Shown: positions 4,315 through 60,418 of the stretch, piece after piece
How the letters are laid out: each line of letters starts with the position of its first letter
How positions within the stretch are numbered: position 1 is the first letter of the stretch
Assembly: GCF_009857885.1 (NCBI RefSeq)
Contig: NZ_WWER01000008.1
Coordinates: forward strand, 62,001-126,000
Reading direction: 5' to 3'
DNA length: 64,000 nucleotides
DNA from: Pusillimonas sp. TS35
GTDB taxonomy: Bacteria; Pseudomonadota; Gammaproteobacteria; Burkholderiales; Burkholderiaceae_B
Translations under genes and position numbers: made by a program
The notes under the pieces: generated by a model
What the model was told of the DNA's origin: nothing
Databases searched by the model: none
What the model saw: the letters and a program-made list of their open reading frames with translations, nothing else

Positions 4315-5292
4315 ATGAACACTCGCCCCTTCCTGGCCGCGGCGTTTGCGCTATGCGCCGTCGCCAGCACACCGGCCCACGCTGCCGATGCCTATCCCGA
4401 CCACCCTATTCGCCTGATTGTGCCATTTGCGCCGGGCGGTTCCACCGATCTACTCGCGCGCGCTGTTGCCGAGGGGCTGCGCACCGAACTGGGCCAGACG
4501 ATTGTCGTGGAAAACGCGGCAGGCGCCGGTGGCCAGATTGGCACGCAGCAGGTGGAGCGCGCCAAGCCCGATGGCTATACGCTTGGCGTCGGTACCGTAA
4601 GCACACTGGTGGTCAACCCGCTGATCAAGCCCGGTCAGAACAACGAGCCGAAACTGGCGCCCATTTCGCTGCTGGCCGAATCACCCGCTGTGTTGATGGT
4701 CAACCCCTCTGTCAAAGCGAATACGCTCGACGAACTGGTCACCGCCATCAAGGCAGACCCGCAGGCATATTCCATGGGCTCGCCGGGCGTTGGCTCCGTG
4801 GGCCACTTGAACCTGGCCGCTTTCAATGCAAAGTTCAAGACTGACATTCTGCACGTACCCTATCGTGGCATGGGCCCAGCCATTACGGCGGCGCTCAGCG
4901 GCGAGACACCGCTGATCGTCGACCAATACGCCTCGGCCGCCGGCCAGGTAGCCGCTGGAAAACTGAAAGCGCTGGCCGTCTACGCCCATGAGCGTCTACC
5001 CAAGCTACCCAATGTACCGACCATGAAAGAGCTCGGCTATCCAGATCTGAACAGCCTCACCATCACCTGGTTCGGCCTCGTCGCGCCGCAAGGCACGCCG
5101 TCAGAGGTCATTGCGCGCCTGAACAAGGCGGTGAAAGACGCCCTGGCCAAGCCCGAAATGCAAAAAACCATGGAAAACATGGGTTTGACACCTATGCCCA
5201 GCACACCTGAGCAATTTACGACCCGCATTAGCGATACCTCGACAAACGTTCGCGCAACGATCAAAGAATCAGGCATCTCGCTGGCGGAGTAG
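4315..5292 (+). CDS. Bug (TctC)-family periplasmic solute-binding receptor
   Basis: The 325-residue product has a signal peptide with cleavage after about residue 23 (PAHA-ADAYP). The Bug core follows: YPDHPIRLIVPFAPGGSTD, then VVENAAGAGGQIGT and KPDGYTLGVG. Bug proteins are the extracytoplasmic receptors of tripartite tricarboxylate transporters and are greatly expanded in Bordetella relatives; ligands are usually carboxylates or amides. AGGAG lies eight bases before the ATG. The M20 amidohydrolase starts two bases after the stop codon, so the pair is translationally coupled and the receptor probably captures the substrate of that enzyme. No TctA or TctB membrane gene is nearby. Confidence 0.93.
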   Translation: MNTRPFLAAAFALCAVASTPAHAADAYPDHPIRLIVPFAPGGSTDLLARAVAEGLRTELGQTIVVENAAGAGGQIGTQQVERAKPDGYTLGVGTVSTLVVNPLIKPGQNNEPKLAPISLLAESPAVLMVNPSVKANTLDELVTAIKADPQAYSMGSPGVGSVGHLNLAAFNAKFKTDILHVPYRGMGPAITAALSGETPLIVDQYASAAGQVAAGKLKALAVYAHERLPKLPNVPTMKELGYPDLNSLTITWFGLVAPQGTPSEVIARLNKAVKDALAKPEMQKTMENMGLTPMPSTPEQFTTRISDTSTNVRATIKESGISLAE

Positions 5293-5294
5293 GC

Positions 5295-6713
5295 ATGGAT
5301 GAGCTCAAAGAACTGTCGCAGATGCTGGACGCGCAGCGCGAGCGCTACACCAGCCTGAGCGACCGGATATGGGAACTGGCGGAATTGCGGTTCCAGGAAA
5401 CCGAATCAGCCGCCATGCACGCCGACATGCTCGAGGCAGAAGGCTTTCGGGTACAGCGCGGCGTAGCAGGCATGCCCACTGCCTTTATCGCCGAAGCGGG
5501 CGACGGCGGCCCGGTGGTCGGTATCCTGGGCGAGTATGACGCCTTGTCGGGCATGAGCCAGGAAAGCGGTGCACTGGTCTGCACCCCCAGTACCGACATT
5601 CCAAACGGCAACGGCCACGGTTGCGGGCATCACTTGCTAGGCACTGCGGCGCATGCCGCGGTGGTGGCGGTAAAAGCGCTGCTGCAGGCGCAAGGTATGC
5701 CGGGGCGCGTGCGTTTCTATGGCTGCCCCGCTGAGGAGGGCGGTTCAGGCAAAACGTATATGGCGCGGGCGGGCCTGTTCGACGATGTCGACGCGGTTCT
5801 CACCTGGCACCCCGCGTCCTACACCGGCACCTGGACGCAATCGTCGCTGGCAAACCTGCAAGCCAGCTTCCGCTTCAAGGGTGTTGCGGCCCACGCCGCC
5901 AATGCTCCGCACCTGGGCCGCAGTGCCCTGGATGCCGTCGAGTTGATGAACGTCGGCTGCAACTACTTGCGCGAGCACATGCCATCGGACGCACGCTTTC
6001 ACTATGCGGTCACCAACACCGGCGGCATGTCGCCGAACGTAGTGCAATCCGACGCCGAGGTGCTGTATTTGATCCGCGCCCCGCGCAATGAGCAAGTCGA
6101 TGACCTGTATGCGCGCATACAGCGCGTGGCACAAGGCGCGGCGCTGATGACGGACTGCAAGGTCGAGATCATCTTCGACAAGGCGTGTTCCAACTATATG
6201 CCCAATCGCACGCTCAACGACGTACTTGATGAAACCCTGCGCGGGCTGGATGCGCCGCACTATTCAGAAGCAGAGCAGCAGGCCGCCCAAGGCCTGTTCG
6301 GTGTCATCAGCGACAGCGACATCGCGTCGGCCAATAGCAATCTTGGGCAGGTGTTGCGCCAGCCCAAGCCGCTATTCCAGGGCGTCGCGTCGTATAGGCG
6401 CGACGACGACCGGGTGATGTTCGGCTCCACCGATGTGGGCGATGTGAGCTGGGTGGCGCCCACGGCCCAGTTCTGGGGTGCCTGTTATGCCTACGGCACA
6501 GCTTTCCATTCGTGGCAGATGGTGTCGCAAGGGAAACAGGGCTTTGCGCACAAGGGCATGCTGTACGCCGCCAAAGCACTGGCCGCCACCGCCTACAGGC
6601 TGATGGGCATGCCCGAGACACTTGCACGCGCGAAGGCCGAACTGCAAGACGCACGCAACGGGCAGCCCTATAAATGCCCGATCCCGCCGACCATCGAACC
6701 GCGCCGGGCCTAA
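5295..6713 (+). CDS. M20-family amidohydrolase, AbgB-like
   Basis: The 472-residue product resembles the AbgB branch of M20 metallopeptidases, which cleave N-acyl or p-aminobenzoyl amino acids. Visible metal-site motifs are GNGHGCGHHLLG near residue 105, the acidic pair in CPAEEGGSGKTYM near 145, and the His in LTWHPASYTG. The lid/dimerisation region with AAHAANAPHLGRSALDAVEL follows near residue 195. There is no signal peptide, so it acts in the cytoplasm. The start is two bases after the Bug receptor stop, with GGAG inside the end of that gene. Together the two genes look like an uptake-and-hydrolysis pair for an amide or peptide-like substrate controlled by the divergent LysR. The exact substrate is unknown. 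Confidence 0.88.
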   Translation: MDELKELSQMLDAQRERYTSLSDRIWELAELRFQETESAAMHADMLEAEGFRVQRGVAGMPTAFIAEAGDGGPVVGILGEYDALSGMSQESGALVCTPSTDIPNGNGHGCGHHLLGTAAHAAVVAVKALLQAQGMPGRVRFYGCPAEEGGSGKTYMARAGLFDDVDAVLTWHPASYTGTWTQSSLANLQASFRFKGVAAHAANAPHLGRSALDAVELMNVGCNYLREHMPSDARFHYAVTNTGGMSPNVVQSDAEVLYLIRAPRNEQVDDLYARIQRVAQGAALMTDCKVEIIFDKACSNYMPNRTLNDVLDETLRGLDAPHYSEAEQQAAQGLFGVISDSDIASANSNLGQVLRQPKPLFQGVASYRRDDDRVMFGSTDVGDVSWVAPTAQFWGACYAYGTAFHSWQMVSQGKQGFAHKGMLYAAKALAATAYRLMGMPETLARAKAELQDARNGQPYKCPIPPTIEPRRA

Positions 6714-6735
6714 GCAACCGCCTCGCCCGCCGGCT

Positions 6736-7575
6736 TCAGCCGGCCACAGGCCCCGGCGGCGCCGGCAGTTGCACCATGTCAAGTTGTCGGTACACTTCTT
6801 CGCACACTCGCCAGAGCTCGTCGCGCGCCACTTCGCCTGAAAGCGCGTAGCCGAGCTTCCCATCGACCCAATAGAACACCCGCACGGCCCCCTCCTGGGC
6901 AAAGCGGAAAGCCGTTTGCCCGCCGCGCGCTTCACGCGTCACGTAGAGCGTCAGGCGCTGGCCCTGGCTATCACCATACATGAGCTGTGCCACTGCGCCC
7001 TGTTCGCCAGGCAGCACCCGCCCGCCCACCAGCGTGTACCCCACACTGGCCAATACAGGCACGCGCAGCGGCTCACCCAAGCGCCGGGACAGCCACCGCA
7101 CCATGGCCTGCTCCTGGTCCGCCTTCACTTCGACCGGCCGGCCCATGTCGCTGGCAAACACCTGGTGCGCCACAGCCGCGCGCTGGGCCAGCCGTTCACC
7201 CTCCACCGCCGAGGCCACGGCAACTGCCTGTTGAGCGTCCCAGACCCCGCGCGCCTGCCATGCAACCAGCGCCCCAATTGCCGTGCATACCAAGCCGGCA
7301 GCCAGTGCATGCCACCATGTGCGTGCCGGCTTGCGCGCCAACGACAGTCGCAGAGGGATGGGCTCGTCCTGCACGTCGTCCAGCGCTGTGCGCAACAGTT
7401 GATTCTGCCGCCGCCACGCTTCGACCTGCGTACGCGCCGACGCATGCGTGGCAATGTAAGCCTCTACCAAGCCGCTGCGTTCGCTACCCAGTTGGCCGTC
7501 TACATAGGCATGCAGGTCGGCCTCGGTAACCGGGCCTTCGTCAGCGGGATAAGAGCCGGAATAGCGCTCATTCAT
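6736..7575 (-). CDS. Anti-sigma factor, membrane-anchored
   Basis: The 279-residue protein has a short N-terminal cytoplasmic domain (TEADLHAYVDGQL near residues 17-29) typical of COG5662 anti-sigma factors, a single membrane helix at about residues 88-106, and a periplasmic C-terminal domain of about 170 residues. The ATG at 7575 follows the sigma-factor stop by one base; a longer reading from 7647 would overlap the sigma gene. By analogy it sequesters the adjacent ECF sigma factor at the membrane until a periplasmic signal arrives. The signal is unknown. No CXXC or HXXXCXXC zinc motif is visible in the N-terminal domain, which argues against a redox-sensing ZAS type. Confidence 0.85.
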   Translation of the reverse strand: MNERYSGSYPADEGPVTEADLHAYVDGQLGSERSGLVEAYIATHASARTQVEAWRRQNQLLRTALDDVQDEPIPLRLSLARKPARTWWHALAAGLVCTAIGALVAWQARGVWDAQQAVAVASAVEGERLAQRAAVAHQVFASDMGRPVEVKADQEQAMVRWLSRRLGEPLRVPVLASVGYTLVGGRVLPGEQGAVAQLMYGDSQGQRLTLYVTREARGGQTAFRFAQEGAVRVFYWVDGKLGYALSGEVARDELWRVCEEVYRQLDMVQLPAPPGPVAG

Positions 7576-53832: not shown

Positions 53833-53916
53833 CAGTGTTCCCTAAGCTGTGTATCTATTTCAATCTGTTTCCACGCGCTTGCCTGAGCCTGCCGAGGCGG
53901 GGCACACTTGAACACT

Positions 53917-54618
53917 ATGGAAACCCCTCTTATAAAAGTACTGGTGGTCGATGACGACCCAGCATTGCGCCAACTGCTTGCCGATTACCTGAACCGGCAT
54001 CAGTATGACACCCTGCTTGCGCCCGACGCCAGCGATCTGCCTACGCGCATTCAGCGCTACTCGCCGGATCTGATCGTACTCGACCGCATGCTCCCCGACG
54101 GCGACGGCGCCGAGGCGTGCCGGCGCCTGCGCCAGCAAGGCGAAGACATCCCCGTTATTTTACTGACCGCGCGGGACGAAACCGTGGATCGGGTGATCGG
54201 CCTGGAGGCCGGCGCCGACGACTACCTGGGCAAACCCTTCGACCCGCGCGAACTGCTGGCCCGCATCGAAGCCGTCCTGCGCCGCAAAAAAGGGGCGTCG
54301 GCACTCAACAAAGACAAGCCCGTTGCCTTCGGCCCCTTCGTCTTCGACCCGGCAACGCGGCAGCTATACAGGGGTGAAGACGTCATCAAGCTCACCGGGG
54401 GCGAGGTCAACCTGCTCGAGGCGCTGGTCGCCAACCCCGGCAAACCACTCTCGCGCGACCGCCTGCTGGCGCTTGCGCGCGACGATGACGACGGGGAGCG
54501 CAATGATCGTGCCATCGACATCGCCATCCTGCGTCTGCGGCGCACCATCGAAGAAGACCCGAAGCAACCGCGCTGGATCCAGACGGTCTGGGGCGTAGGC
54601 TACCGGTTCTCGCCCTGA
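53917..54618 (+). CDS. OmpR-family response regulator
   Basis: The 233-residue protein has a receiver domain (VLVVDDDPALRQLLADYL at the start, phosphoacceptor Asp in LIVLDRMLPDGDGAE, the Lys in DYLGKPFDPREL) and a C-terminal winged helix (LTGGEVNLLEALVANPGKPL, IQTVWGVGYRFSP). The frame could start at a TTG at 53908; the ATG at 53917 is preferred. It is followed after three bases by its sensor kinase. By domain order and the kinase type it is OmpR/EnvZ-like, so osmotic or envelope control is plausible but unproven. Confidence 0.93.
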   Translation: METPLIKVLVVDDDPALRQLLADYLNRHQYDTLLAPDASDLPTRIQRYSPDLIVLDRMLPDGDGAEACRRLRQQGEDIPVILLTARDETVDRVIGLEAGADDYLGKPFDPRELLARIEAVLRRKKGASALNKDKPVAFGPFVFDPATRQLYRGEDVIKLTGGEVNLLEALVANPGKPLSRDRLLALARDDDDGERNDRAIDIAILRLRRTIEEDPKQPRWIQTVWGVGYRFSP

Positions 54619-54621
54619 TTC

Positions 54622-56061
54622 ATGTCCTTCCGTTCACTGTTCCGGTCTGTGGTGCGCGCGGTGCTGCCGCGCTCGCTCAATGCGCGCATGGTGCTGCTCA
54701 CGCTGGGCACCATCCTGCTGGTGCAGGCCGCCACCTTTGGCACCGCCACCTATTACCGCAAAAAGTTCACCGAAGATGTCGCGGTGGAGCTTACCGCCAC
54801 CACCATCCGTACCCTGCGCGCTTCGCTGGCCACGATCCCCGCCGAGGAGCGTGGCGACTTCGTGCGTCAGGCGTCGCAGAACGAATGGCATTTGTGGTCG
54901 CGAACGCTGCCCGCCAATGCCAATCTTGAACGCTATCGTCCTCCGCACCGGCGCCCACCGCCAACAGCCAATGACATCCGCGACAACCTGCGTGATTTTG
55001 TCGGCGCCCTGAACCGCCGCCTGAACGATGACACCCGGGTGGCCTTGTCGCGCGGGCCCACGCCCCGCCTGTATATTTCTTTGCTGCCCGACGCTGTCGC
55101 CAACGATGCCGAGCGGCCACGCGAATGGCTGGTCATCCCGCTGGACCGCATCGCCCCCCCCGTCTCAACCCCTGTGATTGTGGTGTGGCTGGCGGGTATG
55201 GGCCTGCTGCTGTTGATTTCAGCGGCGTTTTCATGGAACATCACGCGCCCGCTGACCCGTCTGGCCAACGCGGCCGACCAGTATGCGGCCGGGCGCCCGG
55301 AGCGGGTCAAACCCTCAGGCCCGCGCGAAACCCGCATACTAGGTGAGCGCTTCAACGCCATGCTGGACACACTGGAAGAAAACAACACCGTCCAGCGCAC
55401 CATGCTTGCCGGCCTCCCGCACGACCTGAAAGGCCCGCTCTCACGCATGTGGCTGCGCATCGAGATGGCCAACGACCCTACCTTCCAGGAAGGCATGCGC
55501 AAAGACCTGCAGGACATGCAGCGGATGGTGGATCAATTCATCGGTTTTGTACGCGGCACGGACCCCGGCTCATACAATTTTGCGCCACTGATGCTGAACA
55601 CGTGGATCGAAGAACAAGTATTTGCATGGGAAAGCGCCGGCAGCCCGGTCCGGCTTGCGCGCGGGGCGGTGCGCCCCCTGCGCGTCAGCGCAGACAAGGC
55701 TGCCCTGGGCCGATTGCTGGACAACCTGATCACCAACGCCCTGAATCATGGCGCACCACCCGTTGACATTGCATTGCGCGAGGATAATGGCCGCGCTGTG
55801 GTGACAGTGAGTGACCACGGCAAAGGCATCAGCGCCGAACGCCGCACCGAGGCACTGCGGCCATTCTCGCGGCTTGACGATGCGCGCACCCTAACGGGCT
55901 CAGTAGGCCTGGGGCTGGCATTGGCCCAGGCCATCGTGGGTGCCCATGGCGGCGAACTGACGTTGGGCGAAGCAGCAACCGGCGGCCTGGAAGTGCGTGT
56001 TTCGCTGCCGCTGAGCCTTGGCAAGGGGCCAGGAGCAGCAGTCAGTCGCCGTCGCGGCTAA
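54622..56061 (+). CDS. EnvZ-like sensor histidine kinase
   Basis: The 479-residue kinase has two membrane helices (about residues 21-40 and 190-210) around a periplasmic domain, and a HAMP region (ITRPLTRLANAADQYAAGRP). The H-box is LAGLPHDLKGPLSRMWLRIE near residue 265, then N-box LLDNLITNALNHGAPP and G-boxes VSDHGKGIS and GSVGLGLALAQAIVGAHGGE. It is the partner of the preceding regulator. Its 3' end overlaps the 3' end of the cydB-like gene on the other strand by 20 bases. Confidence 0.93.
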   Translation: MSFRSLFRSVVRAVLPRSLNARMVLLTLGTILLVQAATFGTATYYRKKFTEDVAVELTATTIRTLRASLATIPAEERGDFVRQASQNEWHLWSRTLPANANLERYRPPHRRPPPTANDIRDNLRDFVGALNRRLNDDTRVALSRGPTPRLYISLLPDAVANDAERPREWLVIPLDRIAPPVSTPVIVVWLAGMGLLLLISAAFSWNITRPLTRLANAADQYAAGRPERVKPSGPRETRILGERFNAMLDTLEENNTVQRTMLAGLPHDLKGPLSRMWLRIEMANDPTFQEGMRKDLQDMQRMVDQFIGFVRGTDPGSYNFAPLMLNTWIEEQVFAWESAGSPVRLARGAVRPLRVSADKAALGRLLDNLITNALNHGAPPVDIALREDNGRAVVTVSDHGKGISAERRTEALRPFSRLDDARTLTGSVGLGLALAQAIVGAHGGELTLGEAATGGLEVRVSLPLSLGKGPGAAVSRRRG

Positions 56062-57169
56062 CCGGTTCGAACGCCTCGGCCACAGGCGCAGCCGGCGCCC
56101 GGAGCATTGCGAGAGGCTTGCGCGGCCGGAAGGCGGGCATCTCAGGTGGGCGCGACAGGCCGAACATGTGCCAGTACACACGCAGATTGAAGATCAGCGC
56201 AACCGGCATCGCGATTGCCACGCAGGACAGCACCAGGCGCTGCGACTGCACCGACGCAGCGGCATCCCAGATGGTCAGGTCATCGAGTACCAGATAGGGA
56301 AAGAAACTGTAGCCCACCCCGCCCAGCATCACCAGAAACACCACCAGCGTCATAACAAAAGGCAGCGCCGTATTGCGGTAGCTGCTCAAGACCATGCGCT
56401 GCAGGCACATTTCAGTTGACACAAAGCAGACCAGCAGCACAGCACCAATGACAGGCACGGCCAGCGGAGGGGTGGCGTTGCTCCATTTCAGGAACACACC
56501 GCTGTTCGCGAAGGCCAGCACCACCATCACGCCCGCCGCCCCGGCGGCTGTCCAGCGCACCGCATGGCGCCCGCAAGCCACGGCACGAACGCGCAGCTCG
56601 CCGTCCACTCGCATGATGAGCCAGGCGGCGCCAAGCAGGCAATAAGCTGCAAGTGCGCATATGCCCAGAAACAGCGCAAACCAGAGGTAGCCGGCCTCGG
56701 TACGATAAGACACCACGATACGCGCCAGCACAAAGCCGTGAGACACGGCGGTAAGCAGCGAGCCGGCGGCAAACCCGGCCAGCCAATAGCGTTGCATGGC
56801 GGCCGGCGCCCTTAGGCGCATTTCGAACGATACTGAGCGCAGCATGACCCCCACGGCCAACATGCACAGAGGCAGATACAACTGGCCCATGACCGGCCCC
56901 CAGGCGCCGGGGAAGGCGGTAAGAAACAAGCCCAGCCCCAGCAGCAACCAGAATTCGTTGGCGTCGCGCCATGGCCCCAGGAGTGACAGCATGCGCGGAC
57001 GCAGATGCGGTGGCGCGAACAGCACCAGGCAGCCGACGCCGATATCGAAACCGTCGAGTATGGTGGCGGCAACAATGGTAATAAACAGAAGCGCCACGAA
57101 GACCAGCGGCATCCAGAAGGCTGGATCGTTGGCGCCAAAACCCAGGAAACTTGCGAGCGCATCTATCAT
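56042..57169 (-). CDS. Cytochrome bd oxidase subunit II (CydB) family protein
   Basis: The 375-residue product aligns with CydB: VAATILDGFDIGVGCLVLFA near residue 33, a W-x-D/A-N-E-FW stretch (GPWRDANEFWLLLGLGLFLT), YLPLCMLAVGVMLRSVSFEM and late LTIWDAAASVQSQRLVL. About eight membrane helices are present. In E. coli CydB stabilises CydA. The subunit I gene overlaps it by four bases upstream. The pairing is unusual because that subunit lacks haem ligands. Confidence 0.85.
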   Translation of the reverse strand: MIDALASFLGFGANDPAFWMPLVFVALLFITIVAATILDGFDIGVGCLVLFAPPHLRPRMLSLLGPWRDANEFWLLLGLGLFLTAFPGAWGPVMGQLYLPLCMLAVGVMLRSVSFEMRLRAPAAMQRYWLAGFAAGSLLTAVSHGFVLARIVVSYRTEAGYLWFALFLGICALAAYCLLGAAWLIMRVDGELRVRAVACGRHAVRWTAAGAAGVMVVLAFANSGVFLKWSNATPPLAVPVIGAVLLVCFVSTEMCLQRMVLSSYRNTALPFVMTLVVFLVMLGGVGYSFFPYLVLDDLTIWDAAASVQSQRLVLSCVAIAMPVALIFNLRVYWHMFGLSRPPEMPAFRPRKPLAMLRAPAAPVAEAFEPVSRDGD

Positions 57170-58506
57170 GCACGCCCCCTGTGACGAGCCACCGGCACGA
57201 CGCCATGGCGCGCCGTATGCCAGAGCATGCGCAGAAAGCCGGCAATAAACAGCATATAAAGTACTGCATAGGCAAACAAACCGCCGGCCACCACCCTGTG
57301 AGAGGCCGAGCCGGCGATTTCAGCGATGGTAATCGTGCCCGCCACTGCAAAGGGATACGCGCCAACCAAGGTATACGCGATGCCTGCCAGCGCCATGGCC
57401 CATGGCCCAAAAACCAGCGCCATCAAGAGCTTGCGCCATCCGGGAGACAACGCGGCGGGATCATAGCCGCCACGGCGCACTTCAAGCCAGGTGAGGCCCG
57501 CGGCAAGCGCCAGCAGCATGCCGGCCAGCAAGGCGATTCGATACAGCCAGAATGTAGCCGCCACGGGTGGCGCCATGCCGGCGAACCTATCCAGCCCCAG
57601 TAACGTGCCATGGCTGTCGCGCCCCAGCCACCGCCCGCCCGCATGCCGCCATCGCAACGTGCCGCGATTAGTGGACGAAGCGGCGTCGGGCCATCCGGCA
57701 ATGATCAGATCGGGTTGTGTGCCGCTTTGCCAATACGCCGCCGTGGCGGCGGCCTTGGCCGGCTGATAGCGCGCCATTATCAACCCGCCCCCCGCTGTGC
57801 AAACCACTTGAAGGACAATGGCCGCCAACGCCAGCCAGACGGCGCTGCGAAACGCCAGCCGTTCGCTGGGCTCGGCCGGCCTGCGCAGCGACTGCGCCGC
57901 CACGACCCCCATGACAAGAAACGCGGCCACCAGCGCCGCTGTGCCGGCAAACAGACCCGCATACCAAGGCAATGCCGGGTTGAAAATGACATTTTCCCAA
58001 TCGATGACATGATATTGCTCGCCCACGAGCACGGCGCCCTCGGGCGCATGCATCCACGACAGCAACGCCAGCAGCCAGAATGACATGAGGGCGGTACCCA
58101 CAGCCACCATAACGACCACCGCCGCATGCGCGCGCCCCGACAAGCGCCTCTCGCCAAACAGCATCGCCCCCATGAAACACGACTTGAACACGAATACCGT
58201 AGTGAGCGCCGCCGCCAGCAGCGGGCCGGCCACGTCGCCGATCTTGCTCATCAATGCCGGCCACAGGCTGCCCAGTTGCAGCAGCACCGGCAGCCCTGCG
58301 GCAAAACTGAGGACAAAGGCCAGGGCGAACACCCGCACCCAGAAACGGTAAGCGGCCATCCAGGGGCCGGCCGGCTCGGCCAGTGACCGGATGCGAAAAT
58401 AAGCCAGCAAGCCGCCCAGGCCGAGTTCCATCATGAGGAATACAGCCAGAAAAGCCAGGCTGGCATAGAACTGGATTTGTGAAAGCCAGAGGGTCGCTTG
58501 CGTCAT
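57166..58506 (-). CDS. Divergent CydA-like (bd oxidase subunit I) protein without canonical haem ligands
   Basis: The 446-residue product has CydA architecture: LWLSQIQFYASLAFLAVFLM aligns with the first CydA helix, FVFKSCFMGAMLFGERRLSG with helix 3, and VGTALMSFWLLALLSWMHAP with helix 4. By eye alignment to E. coli CydA, His19 is Leu, His186 is Ala (in NPALPWYAGLFAG), Met393 is Ala (after YRI), Glu99 is Ala, Glu107 is Lys, and the GRQPW quinol motif reads GAYPF. It keeps the fold but not the haem b558, b595 and d ligands of known oxidases. A longer N-terminal frame (to 58710) is not supported. It is divergent from glnS. Confidence 0.75.
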   Translation of the reverse strand: MTQATLWLSQIQFYASLAFLAVFLMMELGLGGLLAYFRIRSLAEPAGPWMAAYRFWVRVFALAFVLSFAAGLPVLLQLGSLWPALMSKIGDVAGPLLAAALTTVFVFKSCFMGAMLFGERRLSGRAHAAVVVMVAVGTALMSFWLLALLSWMHAPEGAVLVGEQYHVIDWENVIFNPALPWYAGLFAGTAALVAAFLVMGVVAAQSLRRPAEPSERLAFRSAVWLALAAIVLQVVCTAGGGLIMARYQPAKAAATAAYWQSGTQPDLIIAGWPDAASSTNRGTLRWRHAGGRWLGRDSHGTLLGLDRFAGMAPPVAATFWLYRIALLAGMLLALAAGLTWLEVRRGGYDPAALSPGWRKLLMALVFGPWAMALAGIAYTLVGAYPFAVAGTITIAEIAGSASHRVVAGGLFAYAVLYMLFIAGFLRMLWHTARHGVVPVARHRGRA

Positions 58507-58651: not shown

Positions 58652-60418
58652 ATGACATCCCCGTCCACTCCTGCTCCCGTCTCGAATTTCCTGCGCACCA
58701 TCATCGACAACGACCTCGCGCAGGGCAGCTATGCCGATAAGCGCTGGGCAGGCCGGCCTGGCCCCGCCTCCGTCCAGGCCCAGGGCCAGGCAGACCCGGC
58801 GCGCATCCGCACACGGTTCCCGCCCGAGCCCAATGGCTACCTGCATATCGGCCACGCCAAGAGCATCTGCCTGAATTTCGGCCTTGCGCGCGACTACGGC
58901 GGCGTCTGCCATCTGCGTTTCGATGACACCAATCCCGAAAAAGAAGAAGACGAATACGTGCACGCCATCATCGACATGGTGAAATGGCTGGGCTTCGACT
59001 GGCATCGGGGCGAAGAAAACAACTGCTACTTCGCCAGCGACTACTTCGGCTTCATGTATCAGTTCGCCGAGGCGCTGATTGGCGCCGGCCTAGCCTATGT
59101 CGACGAGCAAAGTGCCGACGAAATGCGCGCCACCCGCGGCACGCTCACCGAAAAAGGCAGCAACTCGCCCTGGCGCGACCGCCCGGTCGACGAATCCCTG
59201 CGCCTGCTGCGCGAGATGCGCGACGGCAAGCATCCTGACGGCGCCATGGCGCTGCGCGCCAAGATTGACATGGGCTCACCCAACATCAATATGCGCGACC
59301 CGGTGCTGTATCGCATCCGTCACACGCCGCACCATCGCACGGGCGATCAGTGGTGCATCTACCCCATGTACAGTTGGGCCCACCCGGTCGAAGACGCACT
59401 CGAAGGCATCACACACAGCATCTGCACACTCGAGTTCGAAGACCAGCGGCCTTTCTACGACTGGATCCTGAACCATCTAGCCGATCTGGGCCAACTGGCC
59501 CGCCCTCTGCCGCGCCAGTATGAGTTCGCGCGCCTGAATCTCACCTATGTGGTCACCAGCAAGCGCAAGCTGCTTCAGCTCGTGCGAGAGGGTCGCGTCA
59601 GCGGCTGGGACGACCCGCGCATGCCCACCCTCGTGGGCCTGCGCCGCCGCGGCTATACACCGTCGTCCATCCGCCTGTTCTGCGACCGCCTGGGTGTTTC
59701 CAAGGCCGATTCGCGCATCGACTACAACGAACTCGAACAGGCCCTGCGCGACGACCTTGATCCCGTCGCGCCACGCGCGGTGGCGGTGCTCGACCCCATC
59801 CGCCTGGTCATCACCAACTACCCCGAGGGGCAAACCGAAAACTGCCACGCGCCGCGCAACCCGCACGACCCAGCCGCCGGGCAGCGCGAATTCCCCTTCT
59901 CGCGCAATCTGCTGATCGAGCGAGACGATTTCCGCGAAGATCCGCCCAAAAAGTATTTCCGCCTCTTCCCGGGCAACACTGTGCGCCTCAAATATGGCTA
60001 TGTGGTGCGCTGCACGGGTTGTGTAAAAGATGATCAGGGCAATGTCGTCGAGGTTCACGCCGAATACCTGCCGGACACCAAAAGCGGCACGCCCGGCGCA
60101 GACAGCGTCAAGGTAAAGGGCAATATCACCTGGGTCAGTACGGCCCACGCTGTGCCAGCCGAAGTGCGCCTGTACGACCGCCTGTTCCTCGATCCGCGCC
60201 CCGATAGCGGCAACAAGAACTTCCTGGACGCCATCAACCCCGATTCCTGCAAGGTTATCCACGCCTGGCTGGAACCCGGCGTCGTCGCCGAGCCTGGCAA
60301 TACCTGGCAGTTCGAGCGCTTGGGCTACTTCGTAGCCGATCGCGAAGTCTCCACCGCCGCCAAACCGGTCATCAATCGCGCGGTCACGCTGCGCGATTCC
60401 TGGGTACAAAAGGCTTGA
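58652..60418 (+). CDS. glnS: Glutaminyl-tRNA synthetase
   Basis: The 588-residue class I synthetase charges tRNA-Gln. It has RTRFPPEPNGYLHIGHAKSI (HIGH motif) near residue 55, the KMSKS-like VTSKRKLLQLVREG near 302, and two C-terminal anticodon-binding beta-barrels (RLFPGNTVRLKYGYVVRCTG). The ATG at 58652 matches the usual N-terminus (SNFLRTIIDNDLAQGSYADK). A terminator follows directly. Confidence 0.96.
   Translation: MTSPSTPAPVSNFLRTIIDNDLAQGSYADKRWAGRPGPASVQAQGQADPARIRTRFPPEPNGYLHIGHAKSICLNFGLARDYGGVCHLRFDDTNPEKEEDEYVHAIIDMVKWLGFDWHRGEENNCYFASDYFGFMYQFAEALIGAGLAYVDEQSADEMRATRGTLTEKGSNSPWRDRPVDESLRLLREMRDGKHPDGAMALRAKIDMGSPNINMRDPVLYRIRHTPHHRTGDQWCIYPMYSWAHPVEDALEGITHSICTLEFEDQRPFYDWILNHLADLGQLARPLPRQYEFARLNLTYVVTSKRKLLQLVREGRVSGWDDPRMPTLVGLRRRGYTPSSIRLFCDRLGVSKADSRIDYNELEQALRDDLDPVAPRAVAVLDPIRLVITNYPEGQTENCHAPRNPHDPAAGQREFPFSRNLLIERDDFREDPPKKYFRLFPGNTVRLKYGYVVRCTGCVKDDQGNVVEVHAEYLPDTKSGTPGADSVKVKGNITWVSTAHAVPAEVRLYDRLFLDPRPDSGNKNFLDAINPDSCKVIHAWLEPGVVAEPGNTWQFERLGYFVADREVSTAAKPVINRAVTLRDSWVQKA

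Follow-up and report, generated by a model that had tools for sequence, protein, structure and literature searches.

Among the relatives of CydA, the archaeal CydAA′ and the OR-N families have changed haem or quinol sites. Both reportedly reduce oxygen, and CydAA′ consists of CydA plus CydA′ and has no CydB. A functional bd oxidase is expected to carry the axial haem ligands His19, His186 and Met393 (E. coli numbering), the oxygen-site residues Glu99 and Glu445, and Lys252, Glu257 and the GRQPW motif at the quinol site. Of the three ligands, His186 and Met393 bind haem b558 and His19 binds haem b595. His186, Met393 and Glu99 are named as such functional residues in PMC5322542, and Glu99 and Glu445 in PMC6853902. 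By gene order, a close described system is that of Bordetella, in which BP3224-25 has been published as a second bd oxidase of B. pertussis. BP3222 is described as an OmpR-like regulator and BP3223 as the kinase RisK (PMC5020355), BB4011 is listed opposite BP3224 (PMC1891110), and BB4012-4011 is given as cydAB3 of B. bronchiseptica (PMC11257404).

We analysed a window of 64,000 nucleotides, by which we mean the whole stretch of Pusillimonas sp. TS35 DNA under study, in which a cydA- and cydB-like gene pair lies between a two-component pair and glnS. The features of this locus are the following:

53908-54618, plus strand: OmpR-type response regulator
54622-56061, plus strand: EnvZ-type sensor kinase, convergent with cydB
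56042-57169, minus strand: cydB-like gene, 375 aa
56966-56968, minus strand: codon of CydB Arg68, at the place of Trp57 beside Asp58 (from clade counts)
57166-58506, minus strand: cydA-like gene with the haem ligands replaced, 446 aa
57367-57369, minus strand: codon of CydA Leu380, at the place of Glu445 (MAFFT alignments)
57532-57534, minus strand: codon of CydA Ala325, at the place of the haem b558 ligand Met393 (MAFFT alignments)
57952-57954, minus strand: codon of CydA Leu185, at the place of the haem b558 ligand His186 (MAFFT and HMMER alignments)
58183-58185, minus strand: codon of CydA Lys108, at the place of Glu107 (alignment and clade counts)
58207-58209, minus strand: codon of CydA Ala100, at the place of Glu99 (MAFFT and HMMER alignments)
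58447-58449, minus strand: codon of CydA Leu20, at the place of E. coli His19 (MAFFT and HMMER alignments)
58658-60418, plus strand: glnS, divergent from cydA, which marks the conserved locus

Both subunits are full-length homologues of cytochrome bd oxidase subunits: the CydA-like protein matches PF01654 with 277.1 bits (E = 2.6e-82, model positions 1-417 of 418) and the CydB-like protein matches PF02322 with 184.8 bits (E = 3.1e-54). The frame had been described as intact and overlapping cydB, and translation indeed gives 446 residues with zero internal stops and a 4-bp overlap, which has the same length in 73 of the 80 named relatives (80 of 146 confirmed). The convergent ends of cydB and the EnvZ-type kinase gene overlap by 20 bp (window 56042-56061).

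Compared with E. coli CydA, the window protein has Leu20, Leu185 and Ala325 in place of the axial ligands His19, His186 and Met393, so that neither His nor Met is found at any of the three haem positions, and Ala100 and Leu380 in place of Glu99 and Glu445 at the oxygen site. Glu107 is replaced by Lys108, Trp441 by Ile376 and Arg448 by Ala383. At the quinol site Lys252 is kept, Glu257 is exchanged for Ala256 and the GRQPW motif reads GAYPF; Arg391 is retained as well. The original prediction, aligned by hand, had already given these residues for His19, Met393, Glu99, Glu107 and the quinol motif, and the MAFFT alignments return all of them, with HMMER in agreement for His19, Glu99 and Glu107; at the place of His186, however, it had put an alanine, and the alignment gives leucine. 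A second CydA gene of the same genome (G000:C11) has all of these residues, ligands included, and since related genomes share the losses (below), they are more than chance. The prediction had also noted that neither cydX nor cydDC lies nearby. For cydX this extends to the whole window genome, in which the CydX profile has zero matches, and of cydDC the CydD part extends likewise, as none of the 101 matches of a genome-wide CydD search exceeds the curated cut-off.

When the window CydA was searched against 151 genomes of its family, 142 gave matches, canonical paralogues included. A ligandless copy was read from at least 96 of these 151 sampled genomes, a lower bound in that candidates were chosen among the matches listed and the weaker matches were partly read. 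The 97 loci read from the 96 genomes include 94 copies in which each of the six sites (His19, Glu99, Glu107, His186, Met393 and Glu445) can be read; the three incomplete rows are the two halves of G027 and the copy of G119. In none of the 96 genomes does the copy have all six canonical residues. Glu99, Glu107 and His186 are each lost in 94/94 copies, Glu445 in 92 (retained in 2), His19 in 91 (His in 3, of which the one from G137 is doubtful owing to its cut first helix) and Met393 in 83 (retained in 11), and 80 of the 94 have none of the six left. Site 107 is occupied by Lys in 91 copies and by Arg in 3. A larger set agrees with these counts. It comprises 104 ligandless and 33 canonical rows, after removal of duplicates over the final 150 residues and of rows shorter than 380 aa, and its canonical rows have Glu at site 107 in 33 of 33 cases. 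Outside the family, all six residues are kept in 72 of the 72 loci read (24 + 48, the latter being 20 at order and 28 at class level, from searches that listed more matches).

A contig scan with two clade motifs confirmed 146 relatives. The titles of 80 of them belong to the same family or read Alcaligenaceae or Burkholderiaceae bacterium; names among the relatives include Allopusillimonas, Pollutimonas, Candidimonas, Achromobacter, Bordetella and Alcaligenes and point to the Alcaligenaceae as the family concerned. One of the copies, L052 (G008:C1:3519000-3532000, gene at about 5828-7150 on the plus strand), keeps His19, Met393, Trp441, Glu445, Arg448 and a GRQPY motif, with Lys at 107, Ala at 99, Ser at 186 and Arg57 in its CydB. 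By its residues it looks like a transitional or intermediate copy, in which partial haem binding is possible.

In all 31 flanked ligandless loci glnS adjoins, compared with 0 of 9 flanked canonical loci, and we therefore regard the locus as old. On the other side, the neighbour of cydB is the OmpR/EnvZ pair in 17 of the 31, ClcA in 9 and neither in 5, two of these five being on cut contigs. That the genes adjoin an OmpR/EnvZ pair thus holds for the window and not as a general trait, and with 17 of 31 loci we rejected a general functional link to this pair. In L041, ompR is distant and inverted relative to glnS-cydAB, and in L052 ompR-envZ and minCDE are on swapped sides of it.

In a rapidly computed tree with 57 rows (29 of the 104 ligandless, 27 of the 33 canonical, and E. 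coli), drawn from ligandless and canonical bd genes, the 29 ligandless rows form one clade with an SH-aLRT support of 100 and a stem of 0.77. A phylogeny had been proposed as a check, and this one sets the ligandless CydAs beside a canonical short-Q-loop gene: next to the clade stands L055, which comes from a genome in this family and keeps all the residues that the clade has lost. The canonical gene of the window genome (L073) is on a separate branch. Long branches are seen for L058, L065 and L051. The sampled ligandless clade has a single origin. The short-Q-loop or CIO-like label is given on the length of the Q-loop.

By published locus-tag order, the window pair corresponds to CydAB3/BP3224-25 of Bordetella. 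As expected of an orthologue it stands beside a pair of the ompR-like/RisK type, and by the same order the window EnvZ-type kinase is at the place of Bordetella RisK. We rejected the length of the published cydAB3 deletion (2373 bp) as proof of identity: most relatives give 2372 or 2375 (2366-2384, 80 of 146), but 2374 was also obtained from a canonical gene read from an alternative start. The identity therefore rests on locus-tag order. All 11 Bordetella-titled orthologues read lack His19, Glu99, Glu107 and His186, while B. bronchiseptica and B. pertussis are linked by tag order only. McKay and others found that deletion of cyd3 had no growth effect in ambient air, that a strain of B. bronchiseptica with cyd3 as its only oxidase could not be made and that cyd3 transcripts were low (PMC11257404). 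These authors offer low expression as the reason, and strains with cco, cio, ctaD2 or cyo2 alone failed too; the failure of the cyd3-only strain may thus reflect low expression. The main text of PMC11257404 has no word beginning with ‘ligand’. In B. pertussis, a mutant of cydAB (bp259-260) grew poorly under copper limitation (PMC13038864). This is in line with BP3224-25 giving no back-up, although this latter operon is described as unexpressed. A BP3222 mutant is reported, as data not shown, to have a nearly identical transcriptome (PMC5020355).

Two rival explanations concern the losses themselves. Membrane-helix alignments made by hand can slip, as the earlier residue at site 186 did, and the ligands might be present but misaligned. 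The MAFFT sets, however, agree with an HMMER alignment to 6rko_A at sites 19, 99, 107 and 186, the landmarks Trp150, Pro154, Arg391 and Pro450 hold in both groups, and there is no conserved His near the old ligand sites. The gene might instead be a decaying pseudogene that is open in the window by chance, and broken copies do exist: in L067 (G119, 4836-6089) a stop splits cydA into two reading frames, a sign of occasional loss; in L263 (G137, 71-1360) the cydA frame lacks the first helix, being truncated or misassembled; and cydB3 is disrupted in 7 of 14 B. pertussis strains (PMC11257404). Against this stand the 94 copies readable at six sites, the presence in the clade of new residues at a fixation of 95% or more, and the median NG86 dN/dS over 272 pairs, which is 0.116 for cydA, 0.052 for cydB and 0.071 for glnS (non-independent pairs of named relatives, with cydA identities of 80-99.5% and dS below 1.5). 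The corresponding median for envZ is 0.102 (225 pairs, with mis-hits up to 1.448). Because dN/dS is low across the 272 pairs, the cydA-cydB pair is under purifying selection, as the original prediction had supposed from the intact frame. With concordant alignments and purifying selection, we rejected both explanations and consider either of them almost certainly wrong. The same prediction held that the fold is kept, and an AlphaFold2 model of the window CydA (pLDDT 90.5) superimposes on the solved CydA 7ose_A with Z 49.3 and an r.m.s.d. of 2.1 over 429 residues, so that it has the fold of the CydA superfamily and the CydA fold is predicted to be intact. The CydB model has a pLDDT of 78.4.

Could haem still be bound through other ligands, in an unusual oxidase or redox protein? 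The original prediction allowed for this, the fold is kept, Arg391 is present in 104 of 104 rows, and Met115 (0.99), His127 (0.98), Cys110 (0.93) and His430 (0.89) are conserved; moreover, archaeal CydAA′ works with a changed haem content. Yet in the clade His exceeds 50% at His127 and His430 only, His127 and Met115 are equally conserved in canonical enzymes, the new His430 (canonical Tyr) lies where the last predicted helix ends, and the Glu257 site is acidic in 0 of 104 rows. Ranked by variability within the clade among 116 columns that are fixed in canonical enzymes, Trp441 (4), Lys183 (6), Arg448 (7) and Glu445 (15) are among the most variable, followed by His186 (21), Glu99 (30), Met393 (35) and His19 (40); His19, Glu99 and Met393 are thus not the freest columns. 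Arg391 is invariant, and Glu107, at rank 97, has switched to a new fixed state. Of the earlier suggestion, the part on different ligands fares poorly, and we consider haem binding of this kind very unlikely. Another explanation is that the protein is a regulatory or assembly partner in mixed complexes with the true bd oxidase of the cell, for which archaeal CydA′, which forms complexes with CydA, is a model. The window genome has a canonical CydA, and most genomes among the matches listed, which were partly read, show at least two CydA matches. On the other hand, the ligandless CydA has its own CydB, which is more conserved than cydA, and G042, G127 and G006, drafts of 40-60 contigs that are nevertheless 99% complete, each have one CydA by the bd family model, which in all three is the ligandless one (L189, L188 and L191). 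Because of these three genomes there is no apparent need for a canonical bd oxidase: the ligandless pair seems to be independent of it, judging from gene content, we rejected an obligate partnership, and we regard mixed complexes in general as rather unlikely.

We therefore favour the explanation that the pair, a paralogue of a short-Q-loop (CIO-like) bd oxidase, is free of haem, still kept as a CydA-CydB pair and re-used as a non-oxidase, which on the sequences we consider likely. Because of what the lost residues are known to do, it is very likely not a terminal oxidase, and quite likely it has no bound haem. With the ligands gone, haem would not be bound in the normal way, electrons would not flow and O2 would not be reduced; the pair would then have been re-used after the loss of its redox chemistry while still being made as CydA-CydB. 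That the pair may be a non-oxidase had been suggested before, and the loss of Glu99, Glu107 and His186 in every readable copy together with the conserved position by glnS adds weight to it. We infer that its job is probably other than the oxygen respiration for which it is annotated.

What might such a pair do? In bd oxidases an H-channel, by which protons enter from the cytosol, runs at the CydA-CydB interface. PMC13189123 assigns to it K53(A), K57(A), D105(B), D58(B), E107(A) and E74(A), with Glu107 as the proposed terminal proton donor, and PMC6853902 assigns D119(A), K57(A), K109(B), D105(B), Y379(B) and D58(B). At ten columns that are fixed in canonical enzymes, the clade has a different residue, itself fixed at 95% or more. 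CydA accounts for 3 of its 115 such columns (K57R, E107K and S74L, a site that is Glu74 in E. coli) and CydB for 7 of its 74, including W57R and K109R. In the 104 rows CydA site 107 is Lys in 102 and Arg in 2, site 57 is Arg in all 104, site 53 Arg in 103 and site 119 Arg in 98. The partner CydBs have Arg at site 57 in 103 of 103 cases, compared with Trp in 32 of 32 canonical CydBs; they keep Asp58 in 102 of 103 and have Glu at site 105 and Arg at site 109 in all 103. Arg57(B) is already present in L052 and L062. From the basic residues at 107(A), 57(B), 53(A) and 119(A) it follows that the channel that delivers protons in the oxidase has become basic. Overall, a basic residue became fixed or nearly so at 10 of 784 columns, of which 3 belong to the 8 named channel positions; the enrichment (hypergeometric 8e-5) was computed post hoc and is to be read as a lead only. 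Elsewhere in CydB, site 205 is basic (Arg205) with a frequency of 1.00 in ligandless and 0.03 in canonical proteins, and site 253 acidic (Glu253) with 1.00 and 0.06; the two charges may form a pair and point to another new site.

Among the hardest-fixed changes are thus Glu107(A) to Lys in the proton channel and Trp57(B) to Arg beside Asp58(B). The channel could have become a basic pocket open towards the cytosol, with a role in binding or conducting an anion or in holding an acidic lipid or a partner in place. This idea was formed post hoc, and basic residues near the cytosol may reflect only the positive-inside rule; that the pocket is the working site of the pair is accordingly a tentative suggestion, and transport through it appears unlikely. 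An explicit version, in which the pair would be a haem-free membrane device with the old proton-uptake channel as an anion pathway or an anion-gated switch, we likewise put forward as speculative and improbable. Were it true, the cytochrome bd superfamily would, to our knowledge, gain its first non-redox member.

The favoured haem-free pair resembles the CioAB-type bd oxidases in its fold, its CydA and CydB subunits, its short Q-loop and its Lys252 and Arg391, and its nearest tree branch is a canonical gene of that kind (L055); it differs from them in lacking the haem ligands, Glu107, Glu257 and GRQPW and in having its own CydB with W57R. Unlike archaeal CydAA′, in which CydA joins CydA′ in place of CydB, the window CydA keeps an overlapping and conserved cydB, with its ligands gone. 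Chain C of alternative complex III is a related membrane bundle (Z 18.0-20.7), but at 6-9% identity it is not of the bd family. Bordetella CydAB3 shares the locus order and differs in having been published as a bd oxidase. In the titles and abstract openings that it covered, our literature search found no report of a CydAB pair without its ligands; the superfamily paper of Murali 2021 stood outside that search, and prior notice is therefore possible.

In Bordetella, annotation and publications alike treat the gene as a bd oxidase, and oxidase counts inform the reasoning on infection and copper dependence. If the pair binds no haem, these counts would include one oxidase too many, and there would be a simple cause for the failure of the cyd3-only strain. 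For the family as a whole, the pair, if the reading is true, would be a natural experiment in which CydB and the subunit interface have been kept once the redox chemistry was gone.
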